Of a stretch of 37,228 nt of DNA, positions 2,294-20,393 are shown piece by piece (position 1 is the first letter of the stretch; every line of letters begins with the position of its first letter). The notes beneath the pieces were generated by a model, which made no database searches, had not been told where the DNA came from, and was given only the letters and a program-made list of their open reading frames with translations. The translations under genes and the position numbers were made by a program. The stretch comes from Bacteroidota bacterium (GTDB taxonomy: Bacteria > Bacteroidota > Bacteroidia > Chitinophagales > LD1): NCBI GenBank assembly GCA_947461105.1, contig CANHIG010000006.1, positions 1 through 37,228 on the forward strand, written 5' to 3'.

Positions 2294-3352
2294 ATGAATT
2301 GGTTCAAAAAATATAGCAGTACTATTTATAAGCATTTGAAGCTGATGAGGCTGCTTTTTTCTGTATTGTTTTTATCGAGTACATTCCTTACAAATGCTCA
2401 GGATATTCATTTTTCGCAATTTTCTTTTTCTCCAATGAATGTGAATCCTGCTTATACCGCTTTGTTTAATGGCGATGTTCGATTTGTAGGGAATTACAGA
2501 AATCAGTGGTTTACTGTTCCCGTTAACTATAATACAGTTTCTATTTCTGCTGATATGAATTTGTTCCAACTTAAAAATCATGATAAGATTGGCGGAGGAC
2601 TTTCATTTTACTATGACAGAGCAGGCGATTCTCGATTTACATCCATTCAGGCATTAGCTCATTTTAGCTATTTACTCAATTTTGGGAAAGACGATAAGCA
2701 TACTATTGGTGTAGGATTTAATGTTGGCGTAGGAAATAGAACTGTTCAGTATCAGTATTTGTATTTTGACAATCAATATAATGGAGATCGTTTTGATGGG
2801 CGAATTCAACCTGATGAAAATTTTCCAACGGCTACTTTTACCTATCCTGACATGGGAGCAGGAATCAGTTATCAGTATAGAAAAAGTAATAGGCAAGTAT
2901 TCGTTTTAGGTACTTCCATTCAACATCTTAACCAACCTGCGCAATCATTTTTTGGTGATAAAAACGTGAGATTGAATATGCGCTATACTATTCAAGCAAG
3001 CTTGAGGTGGAAGGTTCATAAAAAGTTAGATATTGTTCCTCAGGTAATTTTTCAATCGCAGGATACAAAATATGAGCTTGCATTTGGAGTACATACCAAG
3101 GCCTATATTTTCAAACAAAAAAATGCGAACATTTGCCTCAATACTGGTGTGTATTATCGAAATAATGATGCTGCATATCTTTTGCTTGGGATCGATTATA
3201 ATGCCTGGCAGGTGAATCTGACTTATGATATTAATACTTCAAAGTTTAAACCGGCTACCAGTACTTATGGCGCAATAGAAGCATCTGTCATTTATATTTT
3301 ATCAAGAGTGAAAAAAGTAAATAGTACCGGTAGTGATTGTCAGATTTTTTAA
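2294..3352 (+). CDS. PorP/SprF family type IX secretion outer membrane protein
   Basis: This 352-residue protein has the PorP/SprF hallmarks: a Sec signal peptide (hydrophobic MRLLFSVLFLSSTFLTNA, cleavage before QDIHFSQF), the N-terminal QFSFSPMNVNPAYTALFNGD motif typical of the family, and alternating aromatic beta strands to the C-terminus as in a 14-strand outer membrane barrel. Family members bridge the translocon to type B sorted cargo; Flavobacterium SprF is needed for SprB secretion. The annotated ATG lies 1 nt after the adhesin stop, suggesting translational coupling. An ATG at 2345 would give a shorter, more conventional signal peptide and is a real alternative. The PorE-like gene follows 7 nt after its stop. 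The family call is firm; the cargo being the adjacent adhesin is inferred from position. Confidence 0.92.
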   Translation: MNWFKKYSSTIYKHLKLMRLLFSVLFLSSTFLTNAQDIHFSQFSFSPMNVNPAYTALFNGDVRFVGNYRNQWFTVPVNYNTVSISADMNLFQLKNHDKIGGGLSFYYDRAGDSRFTSIQALAHFSYLLNFGKDDKHTIGVGFNVGVGNRTVQYQYLYFDNQYNGDRFDGRIQPDENFPTATFTYPDMGAGISYQYRKSNRQVFVLGTSIQHLNQPAQSFFGDKNVRLNMRYTIQASLRWKVHKKLDIVPQVIFQSQDTKYELAFGVHTKAYIFKQKNANICLNTGVYYRNNDAAYLLLGIDYNAWQVNLTYDINTSKFKPATSTYGAIEASVIYILSRVKKVNSTGSDCQIF

Positions 3353-3359
3353 TAAAAAA

Positions 3360-5423
3360 ATGAGCGTAAAATTGCCTTTCAGAAAATTGCTTTTTCTGTC
3401 TCTTTTCTTTCTGTTTGCAAGTGCTTTGGTTTCAGCACAAAGTGCAAAGCAGTTCTTAGAAAAGGGGAATCAGCGTTTTGAAATGGCAGATTATTATGGA
3501 GCTGCTGAAATATTGAATCAGGGAGCAGAGTTATATACTGACAATCTTGAAATCCGCTTTCTTCTTGCTGAGTCTTATAGACATTATAACGATTATGAAA
3601 CTGCTGCTGAGTCTTACAAAAATATTTTGACTGATGATAAAGATGAGCTTTTCCCTACAGCGCGATTTTGGTATGCCAGTATGTTGAAACAACTTGGAAA
3701 GTATAATGAAGCATTAAAACAATTTGAGAAATATAAAATAGCGAGCAGGGGGAGAACTGAGCTGGCAGCTGAAATAACTCGTGAGGTAGAAAGTGCAAAA
3801 TGGGCAAAAGAAAATCAAGCTAAAGTGGCACCAATAAAAATAATTCATCTTGGCGATGATGTGAATTCCGTGTACTCTGATTTCAATCCTTTTACTTCAA
3901 TTGATAATGAATTGGTATATAGTTCTCTGAAGAAAGACACATTGAAGAATATTAAAGAAAGTCGTTCTGGTTTTTTTTCTCCAGATAAAGAACTTGCAAA
4001 ATTTATAGATAAAATAAATGCTTCGCAAAGTTCTAAAAGTATTGCTAATGGTAGTTTTTCTGTTGATTTTTCTCAATTCTTTTTTAATGTTTGTGATAAT
4101 GAAATCAAAAAGCACTGCGATGTTTATGTGATGCATTTCAATGGAGAATGGTCTGCTCCAATAATAACTCAAGGGGTCAATTCAAATAATGCTACATCCT
4201 CGCAACCATTTTTAGTAAAAGAGCAGGATGGGAATTATTTGTATTTCAGCAGCGATAGGAGCGGCACTAAAGGTGGAATGGATATTTGGCGTGCCAAACA
4301 GATTGATAAAGAAAAGTTTATTGCTCCTGAAAATGTAAGCGCTATCAATACAGCAAAAAATGAGTATTCAGTATTTTATGATGAAGATTCAAACAAAATT
4401 TATTTTTCGTCTGAAGGGTGGAAAGGTTTTGGGGGACTTGATATTTTCTATTATGATCTAACCTGCAAGTGCGCACCCGTTAATTTAGGACAGCCTATTA
4501 ATTCACCTGCAAATGATTTCGGGTATTCATTGTCAGCTGACAGAACTAAAGCCTATTTTGCTTCTAATAGGAAAGGTTCTTTGTTTATTAAATCGCAAAC
4601 ATGCTGCTATGATATTTGGATGTATGATACAGGAAAAGATGCTAAGGAAAAGAAGGAAGTGCTAACAGTAAAAGTTGTTGATAGCATTGAAGCACGAATG
4701 AAAATTGATTCATCTTTTACTGTAGCTGTAACCAAAAATGATGATGAGAAATCTATAAAGGATACTCTAATAGTCAACGGAGAACAAATTGCAAATAGGC
4801 AGCGTGATTCATCAGTTCAAACATCACAAAATGTTTTTGATATTGCTAAGACCAAGAAATTGATTCCTGTTACTCTTTATTTCCATAATGATGAACCCGA
4901 TTGTTGCAATTTGAGTGACACAACAAATCTGAACTATGCAACCACCTATGAGGCATATTGGAAATTACTGAGAGAGTATAAAATGAATTTTGCTAAAGGG
5001 CTGGATGAAGGCAAGAAAACAGAAGCAGAGGATGCTATATTTTATTTGTTTACTAACCGTGTAGAGAAGGGATACAGCGATTTGGTACAACTTAGTGCAC
5101 AAATCACAGATGCGTTGAATACGAATCAAAAAATTGAAATTACTATTCAAGGTTATTGCTCTCCACTCAATTATAATTTGTATAACATTAAGCTGGGATA
5201 CAGGCGTGTAGCGTCATTAATCAATTATTTTTACAACTACAGAAACGGATTGCTCAGGCCATTTTTAAATGATGGACGATTAGTACTTAAAAAAGAATCA
5301 TTTGGAGAGGAGACCGCTCCGAGCGATGTAAGCGATAGCAGAGAGGATACTCAGAATTCTGTTTACAACCCACGAGCAGCGATTGAAAGAAAAGTAGAAA
5401 TCATTTCAATTGAAATAAAATAG
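3360..5423 (+). CDS. PorE-like periplasmic protein: TPR, PD40 beta-propeller and OmpA-like domain
   Basis: The start is ATG 3360, because a signal peptide begins there (LLFLSLFFLFASALVSA, cleavage before QSAKQF); a GTG at 3333 would overlap the previous gene. The mature protein begins with TPR-like helices (about 28-140: QFLEKGNQRFEMADYYGAAE). PD40/WD40-like blades follow at about 150-420 (YFSSDRSGTKGGMDIWRA near 292, IYFSSEGWKGFGGLDIF near 346, AYFASNRKGS near 398). An OmpA-like fold sits at about 570-687 (QGYCSPLNYNLYNIKLGYRR). This domain order is that of PorE, the T9SS component that binds peptidoglycan. There is no lipobox cysteine, so it looks like a soluble periplasmic protein rather than a lipoprotein. 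The Asp normally contacting diaminopimelate is not present in the OmpA loop. Being third in an adhesin-PorP-PorE set suggests anchoring of a dedicated export complex. Confidence 0.87.
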   Translation: MSVKLPFRKLLFLSLFFLFASALVSAQSAKQFLEKGNQRFEMADYYGAAEILNQGAELYTDNLEIRFLLAESYRHYNDYETAAESYKNILTDDKDELFPTARFWYASMLKQLGKYNEALKQFEKYKIASRGRTELAAEITREVESAKWAKENQAKVAPIKIIHLGDDVNSVYSDFNPFTSIDNELVYSSLKKDTLKNIKESRSGFFSPDKELAKFIDKINASQSSKSIANGSFSVDFSQFFFNVCDNEIKKHCDVYVMHFNGEWSAPIITQGVNSNNATSSQPFLVKEQDGNYLYFSSDRSGTKGGMDIWRAKQIDKEKFIAPENVSAINTAKNEYSVFYDEDSNKIYFSSEGWKGFGGLDIFYYDLTCKCAPVNLGQPINSPANDFGYSLSADRTKAYFASNRKGSLFIKSQTCCYDIWMYDTGKDAKEKKEVLTVKVVDSIEARMKIDSSFTVAVTKNDDEKSIKDTLIVNGEQIANRQRDSSVQTSQNVFDIAKTKKLIPVTLYFHNDEPDCCNLSDTTNLNYATTYEAYWKLLREYKMNFAKGLDEGKKTEAEDAIFYLFTNRVEKGYSDLVQLSAQITDALNTNQKIEITIQGYCSPLNYNLYNIKLGYRRVASLINYFYNYRNGLLRPFLNDGRLVLKKESFGEETAPSDVSDSREDTQNSVYNPRAAIERKVEIISIEIK

Positions 5424-18881: not shown

Positions 18882-19115
18882 TTATTCTTCAGTTTTCTTT
18901 GCTGCCTTTTTTGCCGGAGCTTTTTTAGCTGCTGCTTTTTTTGGAGCTGCTTTTTTTGGAGCTGCTTCTGTTGAAGTTGTTTTTTCTTTTGCAGGTTTAG
19001 CTGCTTTTTTAGCTGAAGGGGCAGCAGCTTTTACAGCTACTTTGCTCGGACGAGCGTTGCCAAATGAGCCTTTAAATCTTTTTCCTTTTTCAGTTCTTTT
19101 ATCTCCTCTTCCCAT
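18882..19115 (-). CDS. 30S ribosomal protein THX with a Lys/Ala/Pro-rich C-terminal extension
   Basis: Residues 1-25 (MGRGDKRTEKGKRFKGSFGN followed by ARPSK) match ribosomal protein THX, a 25-30 residue basic peptide that stabilises the top of the 30S head in Thermus and is common in Bacteroidota. Here it is followed by about 50 residues made almost only of Lys, Ala, Pro with some Glu/Thr, including KKAAP pentads, a composition like histone H1 or the bacterial HU/AlgP tails. The tail DNA contains a 15-bp tandem repeat. It has its own promoter-like sequence (19139-19169) and a strong terminator (18818-18857), so it is a monocistronic unit. A long reading frame on the opposite strand (18868-19125) is an artefact of the repetitive tail. 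Confidence 0.88.
   Translation of the reverse strand: MGRGDKRTEKGKRFKGSFGNARPSKVAVKAAAPSAKKAAKPAKEKTTSTEAAPKKAAPKKAAAKKAPAKKAAKKTEE
18931..18966. repeat. 15-bp tandem repeat in the THX tail
   Basis: The unit GCTGCTTTTTTTGGA occurs at 18931-18945 and 18946-18960, followed by a partial copy GCTGCT. On the coding strand each unit encodes a KKAAP pentad. The T7 runs and in-frame unit length make it prone to copy-number change without frameshift. Confidence 0.8.
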
Positions 19116-19138
19116 GATTTTTTAATTTTTAAGATGCA

Positions 19139-19169
19139 CAAACCTAATTAAAATTTGTTTTAACACAAA
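19139..19169 (-). promoter_or_regulatory. Bacteroidota-type promoter for the THX gene
   Basis: Read on the minus strand, TTTG (19169-19166) is followed after exactly 19 nt by TAGGTTTG (19146-19139). This matches the TTTG / 19-21 nt / TAnnTTTG consensus. The start codon of THX is 23 nt downstream of the -7 box. Confidence 0.72.
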
Positions 19170-19181
19170 TGAACACTGAAA

Positions 19182-19307
19182 TTAATGCAGCCGTTTGCCA
19201 TTGAATTTAGGACAGTCGCACTTTTGAGCTGCGCAGGAAACCATTTGACTGACTGCTATAAAACTGATAACAATGAAAAGAATTTTCCTAATTCTGATTT
19301 TAAGCAT
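19182..19307 (-). CDS. Small lipoprotein, 41 residues
   Basis: A minus-strand ATG at 19307 opens a 41-residue frame ending in TAA at 19182. It starts MLKIRIRKILFIVISF, continues through a hydrophobic segment, and has a lipobox-like MVSC at residues 22-25 followed by AAQKCDCPKFNGKRLH. The basic n-region, hydrophobic core, Cys25 and short Cys-rich mature part (C30, C32) are what a tiny lipidated Bacteroidota envelope peptide looks like. The mature peptide would be only 17 residues. The function is unknown; lspA, whose product would process it, is 1.5 kb away but is not specific to it. It is too short for usual gene calling and would be missed. It lies upstream of THX on the same strand and divergent from the glycosyltransferase gene. 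Confidence 0.75.
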   Translation of the reverse strand: MLKIRIRKILFIVISFIAVSQMVSCAAQKCDCPKFNGKRLH

Positions 19308-19340
19308 AATATTTATCTCAATTTACCGCTAAAATAACTT

Positions 19341-20393
19341 TTGAAAGTTAATACAAAAATATTAGTTACTCCGCTTAATTGGGGACTTGGGCATGCTACA
19401 AGGTGCATCCCTTTAATTAATGAGCTAAGGAGGCAATCTTATGATGTTCATATAGCCTCGGATGGCGGATCACTTCAGCTTCTGAAAGAGGAGTTTCCTC
19501 AGCTACATTTTTTTGAATTACCTTCTTATAATATTTCTTACAACAGCCATTTTGTATGGAGCATGGCAAAAAAAATACCTGCTATCGTAAATGCTATTGA
19601 AGCTGAAAGAGAGGCGATTCAAAATATTGTAACTCAATGTGGAATTGACGTTGTTATTAGCGACAATCGTTATGGTTGCTATTCATCGAAAACAAAAAAT
19701 ATCTTTCTATGTCATCAGCAATATTTGTTGTTGCCTTGGTGGATGAAGCCTGTTAGTCCCTTCATTAATTTTTTACATAGGCGGTATCTAAATAAGTTTC
19801 ATGAGCAATGGATTCCTGATTTCAGCAATCATTACCTAAGTGGAATTTTGAGTGAAACTGCTCTGAGTAACGTAAGGTATATTGGCGCGCTTTCCCGTTT
19901 TAAGGCTAGCGATTCTGAGATGTATTATGATATTGCAGCTGTGATTTCAGGCCCTGAGCCACAGCGTACTTTCATTGAGCAAATCTTGTGGAGTCAACTT
20001 CAAAGCGCACCATATAAGTCTATATTGGTTTGTGGAAAAATTTCAGATGATAGAGTGGCGGTAAAATCACGGAATGCTGAGAAAGTAAATTTCCTCAATG
20101 CTCATGAATTGGAGCTTCTATTGAATAAAAGCGATGTTGTCATTTGTCGTTCTGGATACAGCTCTCTGATGGACATGATTTCTTTACGGAAGCGAGTGAT
20201 TTTTATTCCTACTCCCGGTCAAACAGAACAGGAATATATTGCTCAAAGATTTCAAGCAATGAAAATTGCACCTATGTTTACTCAAAATGATTTTAACATA
20301 GAATATGCAATTGATGTTTTGAAGGATTACAAGGGATTTAGCAAAACTCATGATTTTTCAACACTTTTGGCTGAAGCAGTAAAAAGTATATAA
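19341..20393 (+). CDS. MurG-like glycosyltransferase family protein
   Basis: The N-terminal LNWGLGHATRCIPLINEL (residues 12-29) is the glycine-rich acceptor loop of GT-B enzymes, and the C-terminal CRSGYSSLMDMISLRKRVIF and PTPGQTEQEYIAQRF correspond to the nucleotide-sugar site of MurG/GT28-like enzymes. The 350-residue protein belongs to the group annotated as putative UDP-GlcNAc:LPS N-acetylglucosamine transferases; acceptor and donor are not proven. The start is TTG 19341: the frame has a stop at 19335 and no ATG or GTG before the essential glycine loop. It is 1 nt upstream of the diacylglycerol kinase gene, suggesting a two-gene envelope operon. Confidence 0.85.
   Translation: MKVNTKILVTPLNWGLGHATRCIPLINELRRQSYDVHIASDGGSLQLLKEEFPQLHFFELPSYNISYNSHFVWSMAKKIPAIVNAIEAEREAIQNIVTQCGIDVVISDNRYGCYSSKTKNIFLCHQQYLLLPWWMKPVSPFINFLHRRYLNKFHEQWIPDFSNHYLSGILSETALSNVRYIGALSRFKASDSEMYYDIAAVISGPEPQRTFIEQILWSQLQSAPYKSILVCGKISDDRVAVKSRNAEKVNFLNAHELELLLNKSDVVICRSGYSSLMDMISLRKRVIFIPTPGQTEQEYIAQRFQAMKIAPMFTQNDFNIEYAIDVLKDYKGFSKTHDFSTLLAEAVKSI

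Follow-up and report, generated by a model that had tools for sequence, protein, structure and literature searches.

Does the seemingly empty gap before the THX gene in this Bacteroidota genome encode a protein and, if so, what might that protein do? We examined the locus in the window, a stretch of 37,228 nucleotides. A preliminary description proposed an unlisted lipoprotein gene here, on the minus strand, and its coordinates and features were exact. The gene has 41 codons and a stop (19182–19307, minus strand). Read from the ATG at 19307 to a TAA stop, the translation is MLKIRIRKILFIVISFIAVSQMVSCAAQKCDCPKFNGKRLH. Residues 1–24 form a predicted type II signal peptide (19236–19307, minus strand), with a basic n-region (KIRIRK) and a hydrophobic core. 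This leads into the lipobox MVSC, which ends in the predicted lipidated Cys25 (19233–19244, minus strand). The predicted mature peptide, CAAQKCDCPKFNGKRLH, is 17 residues long and begins CAAQKCDCPKF. Within it, the KCDCPKF core (residues 29–35; 19203–19223, minus strand) contains the CDC motif and a proposed metal or thiol site, Cys30-x-Cys32-Pro.

As described, the frame fills the gap before THX. The next gene downstream encodes 30S ribosomal protein THX (18882–19115, minus strand; NCBIfam TIGR04560, E 1e-11), and 66 nt separate the two (19116–19181, minus strand). On the other side is a divergent gene for an MJ1255/GT28-like glycosyltransferase (19341–20393, plus strand), identified by Pfam and NCBIfam; no other neighbour of the lipoprotein gene is so constant. 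The two divergent start codons are 33 nt apart (19308–19340) and this tight spacing recurs in relatives. Hence, there is no room for two promoters that overlap neither coding sequence nor each other. We also noted that the THX product (77 aa, compared to a 26-position model) has a repetitive tail rich in Lys and Ala. Elsewhere in the genome, similar low-complexity DNA produces weak matches. Near the window start (2294–5423, plus strand), PorP/SprF-like and OmpA-like genes lie beside genes for gliding/T9SS-type C-terminal-domain proteins, as judged by eye from translations.

Conservation of the frame

The preliminary description named two observations that would count against a gene: no conserved frame in relatives, or substitutions not biased to third codon positions. 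Homologues were found in 45 of 61 searched genomes at E ≤ 1, counting the window's own genome; the best match (E 3e-10) was in a genus-mate. A profile search of the order returned matches in 182 of 399 genomes at E ≤ 0.01, the weak ones among which may reflect the signal peptide only. At class level, 127 of 296 genomes matched at E ≤ 0.01, spread over many families. The best of these matches are short lipoproteins ending K-x-C-D-C-P-x-F/W-G/S. A scan of contigs was made with a 7-row alignment, an 18-row alignment being too divergent. Its named records came from Chitinophagales, Sphingobacteriales and unplaced Bacteroidetes MAGs; JAEUUZ010000017.1, 'Chitinophagales bacterium new MAG-368', was the closest, and its match has the same position on the contig as that of the genus-mate (G001). 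Most of the genomes compared throughout are MAGs.

The family core is the lipobox Cys followed by C-x(1,2)-C-P-x-[F/W], some members having C-x-x-C-P. In a 24-member divergent alignment, invariance is confined to M1, the lipobox Cys, the two Cys residues of the core (C30 and C32) and Pro (P33). The signal peptide keeps its architecture across homologues and its sequence varies. Within the bacterial family of the window, the mature part hardly departs from C(K/A)A(N/T/Q)KCDCPxFGGHRLKH. His residues occur at the C-terminal end, two of them in most genomes of this family. No meaningful match was found in Pfam, NCBIfam or PDB for the peptide or for 24-member alignments. Profile matches named BamJ, LptM, LPXTG or toxin were marginal and those inspected in full fell far under the cut-offs.

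Selection acts on the protein. In the closest homologue pairs dN/dS is about 0.06–0.2 and differences are concentrated at third positions. Briefly, differences at first, second and third positions were [4,1,15] for G021/G028 (dN 0.05, dS 0.78), [4,5,20] for G020/G015 (dN 0.10, dS 1.31), [5,2,10] for G017/G022 (dN 0.07, dS 0.43) and [8,2,14] for G007/G004 (dN 0.10, dS 0.55). Between the window and its genus-mate there are 17, 7 and 23 differences at first, second and third positions over 41 codons, and the QKCDCPKF block is identical in the two proteins. Such third-position-dominated change marks the frame as a gene. With only 41 codons and no match in Pfam or NCBIfam, it might be suspected of being open by chance in non-coding DNA. 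However, homologues of the same architecture occur class-wide and dN/dS is far below 1; the conservation data already refute this reading, whose probability we regard as negligible. The lipoprotein interpretation is supported by the lipobox Cys, which is invariant across very divergent members. We conclude from these comparisons that a genuine and conserved gene lies here. It encodes a tiny Cys peptide, with a predicted lipid anchor, of an uncatalogued Bacteroidia-wide family.

Neighbouring iron genes

Surroundings rich in iron genes, absent from the preliminary description, emerged in relatives of the window. In the window's family, the next gene on the lipoprotein strand usually encodes an FeoA-domain protein or ferritin. 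The lipoprotein gene diverges from the same glycosyltransferase gene in nearly every genome. In the synteny comparison, this glycosyltransferase neighbour fell in the same cluster in 31–33 loci. Twelve members in the order have a ferritin gene downstream in the same orientation, 11 of them within 180 nt. Identities of ferritin and FeoA were verified by Pfam. The ferritin-linked members come from several families (f1, f7, f10, f14 and f22). Hence, the linkage does not trace to one inherited event. Outside the order, a small lipoprotein gene stands directly before feoA-feoB. At five loci from other orders (L157, L158, L163, L164 and L166) two conserved genes, of clusters c13 and c6, diverge from the lipoprotein-feo unit. 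By sequence, these genes resemble an MlaE/MlaF-type ABC transporter pair.

Linkage to feoB was assessed with loci that had not been picked by the peptide. An independent search for FeoB supplied the loci, one for each family (three were order-level). The 1.5 kb upstream of each was scanned for a strict pattern of signal peptide, Cys and C-x(1,2)-C-P. Six non-lipoprotein matches to an earlier pattern were gone under the strict one. The lipoprotein was encoded directly upstream in 16 of 56 feoB loci, always on the feo strand. None of the 398 upstream windows taken as controls contained this pattern, and it was likewise absent from all 56 opposite strands and all 1120 shuffles. These controls also bear out the original suggestion that so ordered a composition is unlikely by chance. 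Of the 74 profile matches in the class sample, 22 shared a strand with FeoB and lay no more than 4 kb upstream of it; none was on the opposite strand and none was downstream. We estimate that chance would yield far fewer than one such FeoB-adjacent match. The strict pattern was not matched at the other 40 of the 56 sampled feoB loci, and 52 of the 74 profile matches were not near FeoB, the weak ones among them perhaps being signal-peptide noise. Linkage to iron genes is thus frequent and not universal. Being above chance for feoA/feoB, it places the family among Feo-associated proteins in the sense of functional association, not homology. We consider an association of this lipoprotein family with iron very likely. 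No relevant publication on a small feoA-linked lipoprotein came up in a search of the literature.

Alternatively, the lipoprotein could have a general role in the envelope, perhaps as a maturation factor resembling LptM, and its iron neighbours would then be incidental. Weak matches were obtained to the LptM model for two members and to BamJ for two (best E 0.03–0.054), and the genes flanking it in the window encode a glycosyltransferase and THX. LptM and other short envelope lipoproteins do resemble the present family in having a short mature peptide on a lipid anchor. However, they have no common C-x-C-P core, their profiles match marginally and the present family is linked to iron genes. 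The BamJ match that we inspected scored 14.6 bits against a cut-off of 100. Furthermore, the gene stands at 16 of 56 feoB loci and in none of 398 control windows, and feoA, feoB and ferritin recur while other neighbours change. Hence, we judge an envelope role with incidental iron neighbours improbable.

The locus in the lineage of the window

Comparison of gene orders suggests how the window came to lack iron genes at this site. The full run, seen in one genome (G039), is a divergent glycosyltransferase gene and then, on the lipoprotein strand, lipoprotein, ferritin, feoA and feoB. Four others (G031, G033, G454 and G515) have the same order with no ferritin gene. In the complete genus-mate (G001), the divergent glycosyltransferase gene is followed by lipoprotein, feoA, THX and an SSF symporter. 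The window has the glycosyltransferase, lipoprotein, THX and SSF symporter genes, and neither feoA nor ferritin at the locus; feoA of the genus-mate sits at the place matching the 66-nt gap (window compared to L064). THX is an ordinary neighbour, outside the iron unit.

FeoB (PF07664) is present in 127 of 149 class genomes. No match was found in the window's own genome, in the complete genus-mate or in any of 19 genomes of the family. As the window's own genome is 87.65% complete, claims of absence for it rest on the complete genus-mate. A lone FeoA match in the window's genome (contig C59) was set aside; the ORF list has no separate FeoA gene there and the match does not lie near the locus. 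An NRAMP protein occurs in 19 of 19 tested genomes of the family and may replace FeoB there. These NRAMP proteins are mostly about 620 aa, longer than usual (in the window's genome, C27:10071–11138, minus strand, and C12:26482–27564, plus strand).

Given the absence of FeoB from the family and the gene orders of relatives, the best explanation of the window locus is a remnant. Its ancestor would have had a divergent glycosyltransferase gene followed by lipoprotein, in some cases ferritin, feoA and feoB, and the lipoprotein would have outlived FeoB. This bears on whether the frame is a regulatory leader, the translation of which controls iron genes while the peptide itself is irrelevant. The small size and the location just upstream of feoA/feoB would suit a leader. 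However, the frame carries a full lipoprotein signal, its amino acids are strongly constrained where synonymous change is saturated, and the gene persists where the locus has lost feoA, feoB and ferritin, as in the window. A leader is therefore highly improbable.

Possible roles of the peptide

The lipoprotein is probably an unnamed periplasmic helper in iron handling. With a basic n-region, a hydrophobic core and a Cys-ending lipobox, the precursor has the sequence of a type II signal peptide. Signal peptidase II would cleave before Cys25, which would be lipidated, leaving the mature peptide anchored at the periplasmic side of a membrane. The Bacteroidetes consensus for lipoprotein surface export is K-(D/E)2 (PMC5080379). 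Neither K-(D/E)2 nor Q-A-(D/E)2 follows the lipidated Cys in CAAQKCDCPKF. The peptide is predicted to face the periplasm because this acidic motif is absent.

In that position the Cys pair, together with the C-terminal His residues in the window's family, might bind Fe(II) or keep iron reduced. Iron might then pass to an inner-membrane importer, which in most Bacteroidia would be FeoB. One account of FeoB describes its predicted pore as Cys-lined (PMC4847171), which would suit a hand-over of iron. In the window's lineage, which has no FeoB, such a hand-over cannot operate and the role of the peptide must be FeoB-independent. There, the peptide may serve another importer, such as NRAMP, or buffer periplasmic iron.

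With a C-terminal His, the paired Cys residues next to Pro might be ligands of a soft or borderline metal, for example Fe(II), or they might serve as a thiol reductant. The C-x-C motif suits several metals and redox roles. Hence, the sequence does not establish iron specifically. Metal chaperoning by the lipoprotein is a reasonable possibility, a little short of evenly balanced. The C-x-C-P pair could alternatively be read as a periplasmic reductant or thiol exchanger that keeps iron ferrous, or the cysteines of FeoB reduced, and carries no metal. Both C-x-C and C-x-x-C spacings are found in the family and, beside Pro, are reminiscent of thiol-disulfide sites. However, no thioredoxin-like or DsbD-like partner recurs next to the gene, the peptide is below the size of a thioredoxin fold and the C-terminal His residues in the window's family fit metal better. 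We think a purely redox role rather unlikely. Taken together, a real lipoprotein gene, in the remnant of an iron locus, for a putative Fe(II)-handling peptide is the best explanation and, on balance, a probable one.

Small Cys-rich accessories of Feo are already known, as FeoC and PF12669, and judging by sequence the present family belongs to neither. The FeoB-associated Cys-rich protein PF12669 is likewise small, Cys-rich, membrane-associated and tied to feo loci. It is common in Bacteroidetes, its translation and function are still open questions, and it is encoded downstream of feoB or fused to the FeoB C-terminus, with the motif Cx3-5Cx2-3Cx6-8C (PMC8749426). In contrast, the present gene lies upstream of feoA, its 22 FeoB-adjacent matches all being upstream, and its product carries a lipobox and a single C-x(1,2)-C-P. 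A Pfam scan of 24 members gave no match to PF12669 at E ≤ 0.1. FeoC, in Gammaproteobacteria, is similarly a small third feo-operon component with functional cysteines (PMC8749426). It is a cytoplasmic protein of about 8.5 kDa (PMC10353542), whereas the present product, from a gene preceding feoA, is a peptide predicted to be lipidated and periplasmic. None of the 24 members matched FeoC in Pfam and the precursor has an N-terminal export signal. Position, localisation signal, motif and profile therefore all separate the family from FeoC and PF12669.

Feo is a widespread bacterial importer of ferrous iron and, to our knowledge, has no established periplasmic partner. We tentatively propose, with some doubt, that the family is a Bacteroidia-wide component of ferrous iron uptake. 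It would be a lipid-anchored mini-metallochaperone, encoded before feoA-feoB and ferritin. The lineage of the window would have kept it, with extra His ligands, after loss of FeoB, then to serve, for example, NRAMP. A lipoprotein that accompanies feoA, feoB and ferritin across the class, and is missing from the profile libraries searched, would be a candidate periplasmic partner of Feo that can be tested directly. Gaps in Bacteroidota genomes that look 'empty' can harbour short, conserved genes that belong to metal systems.
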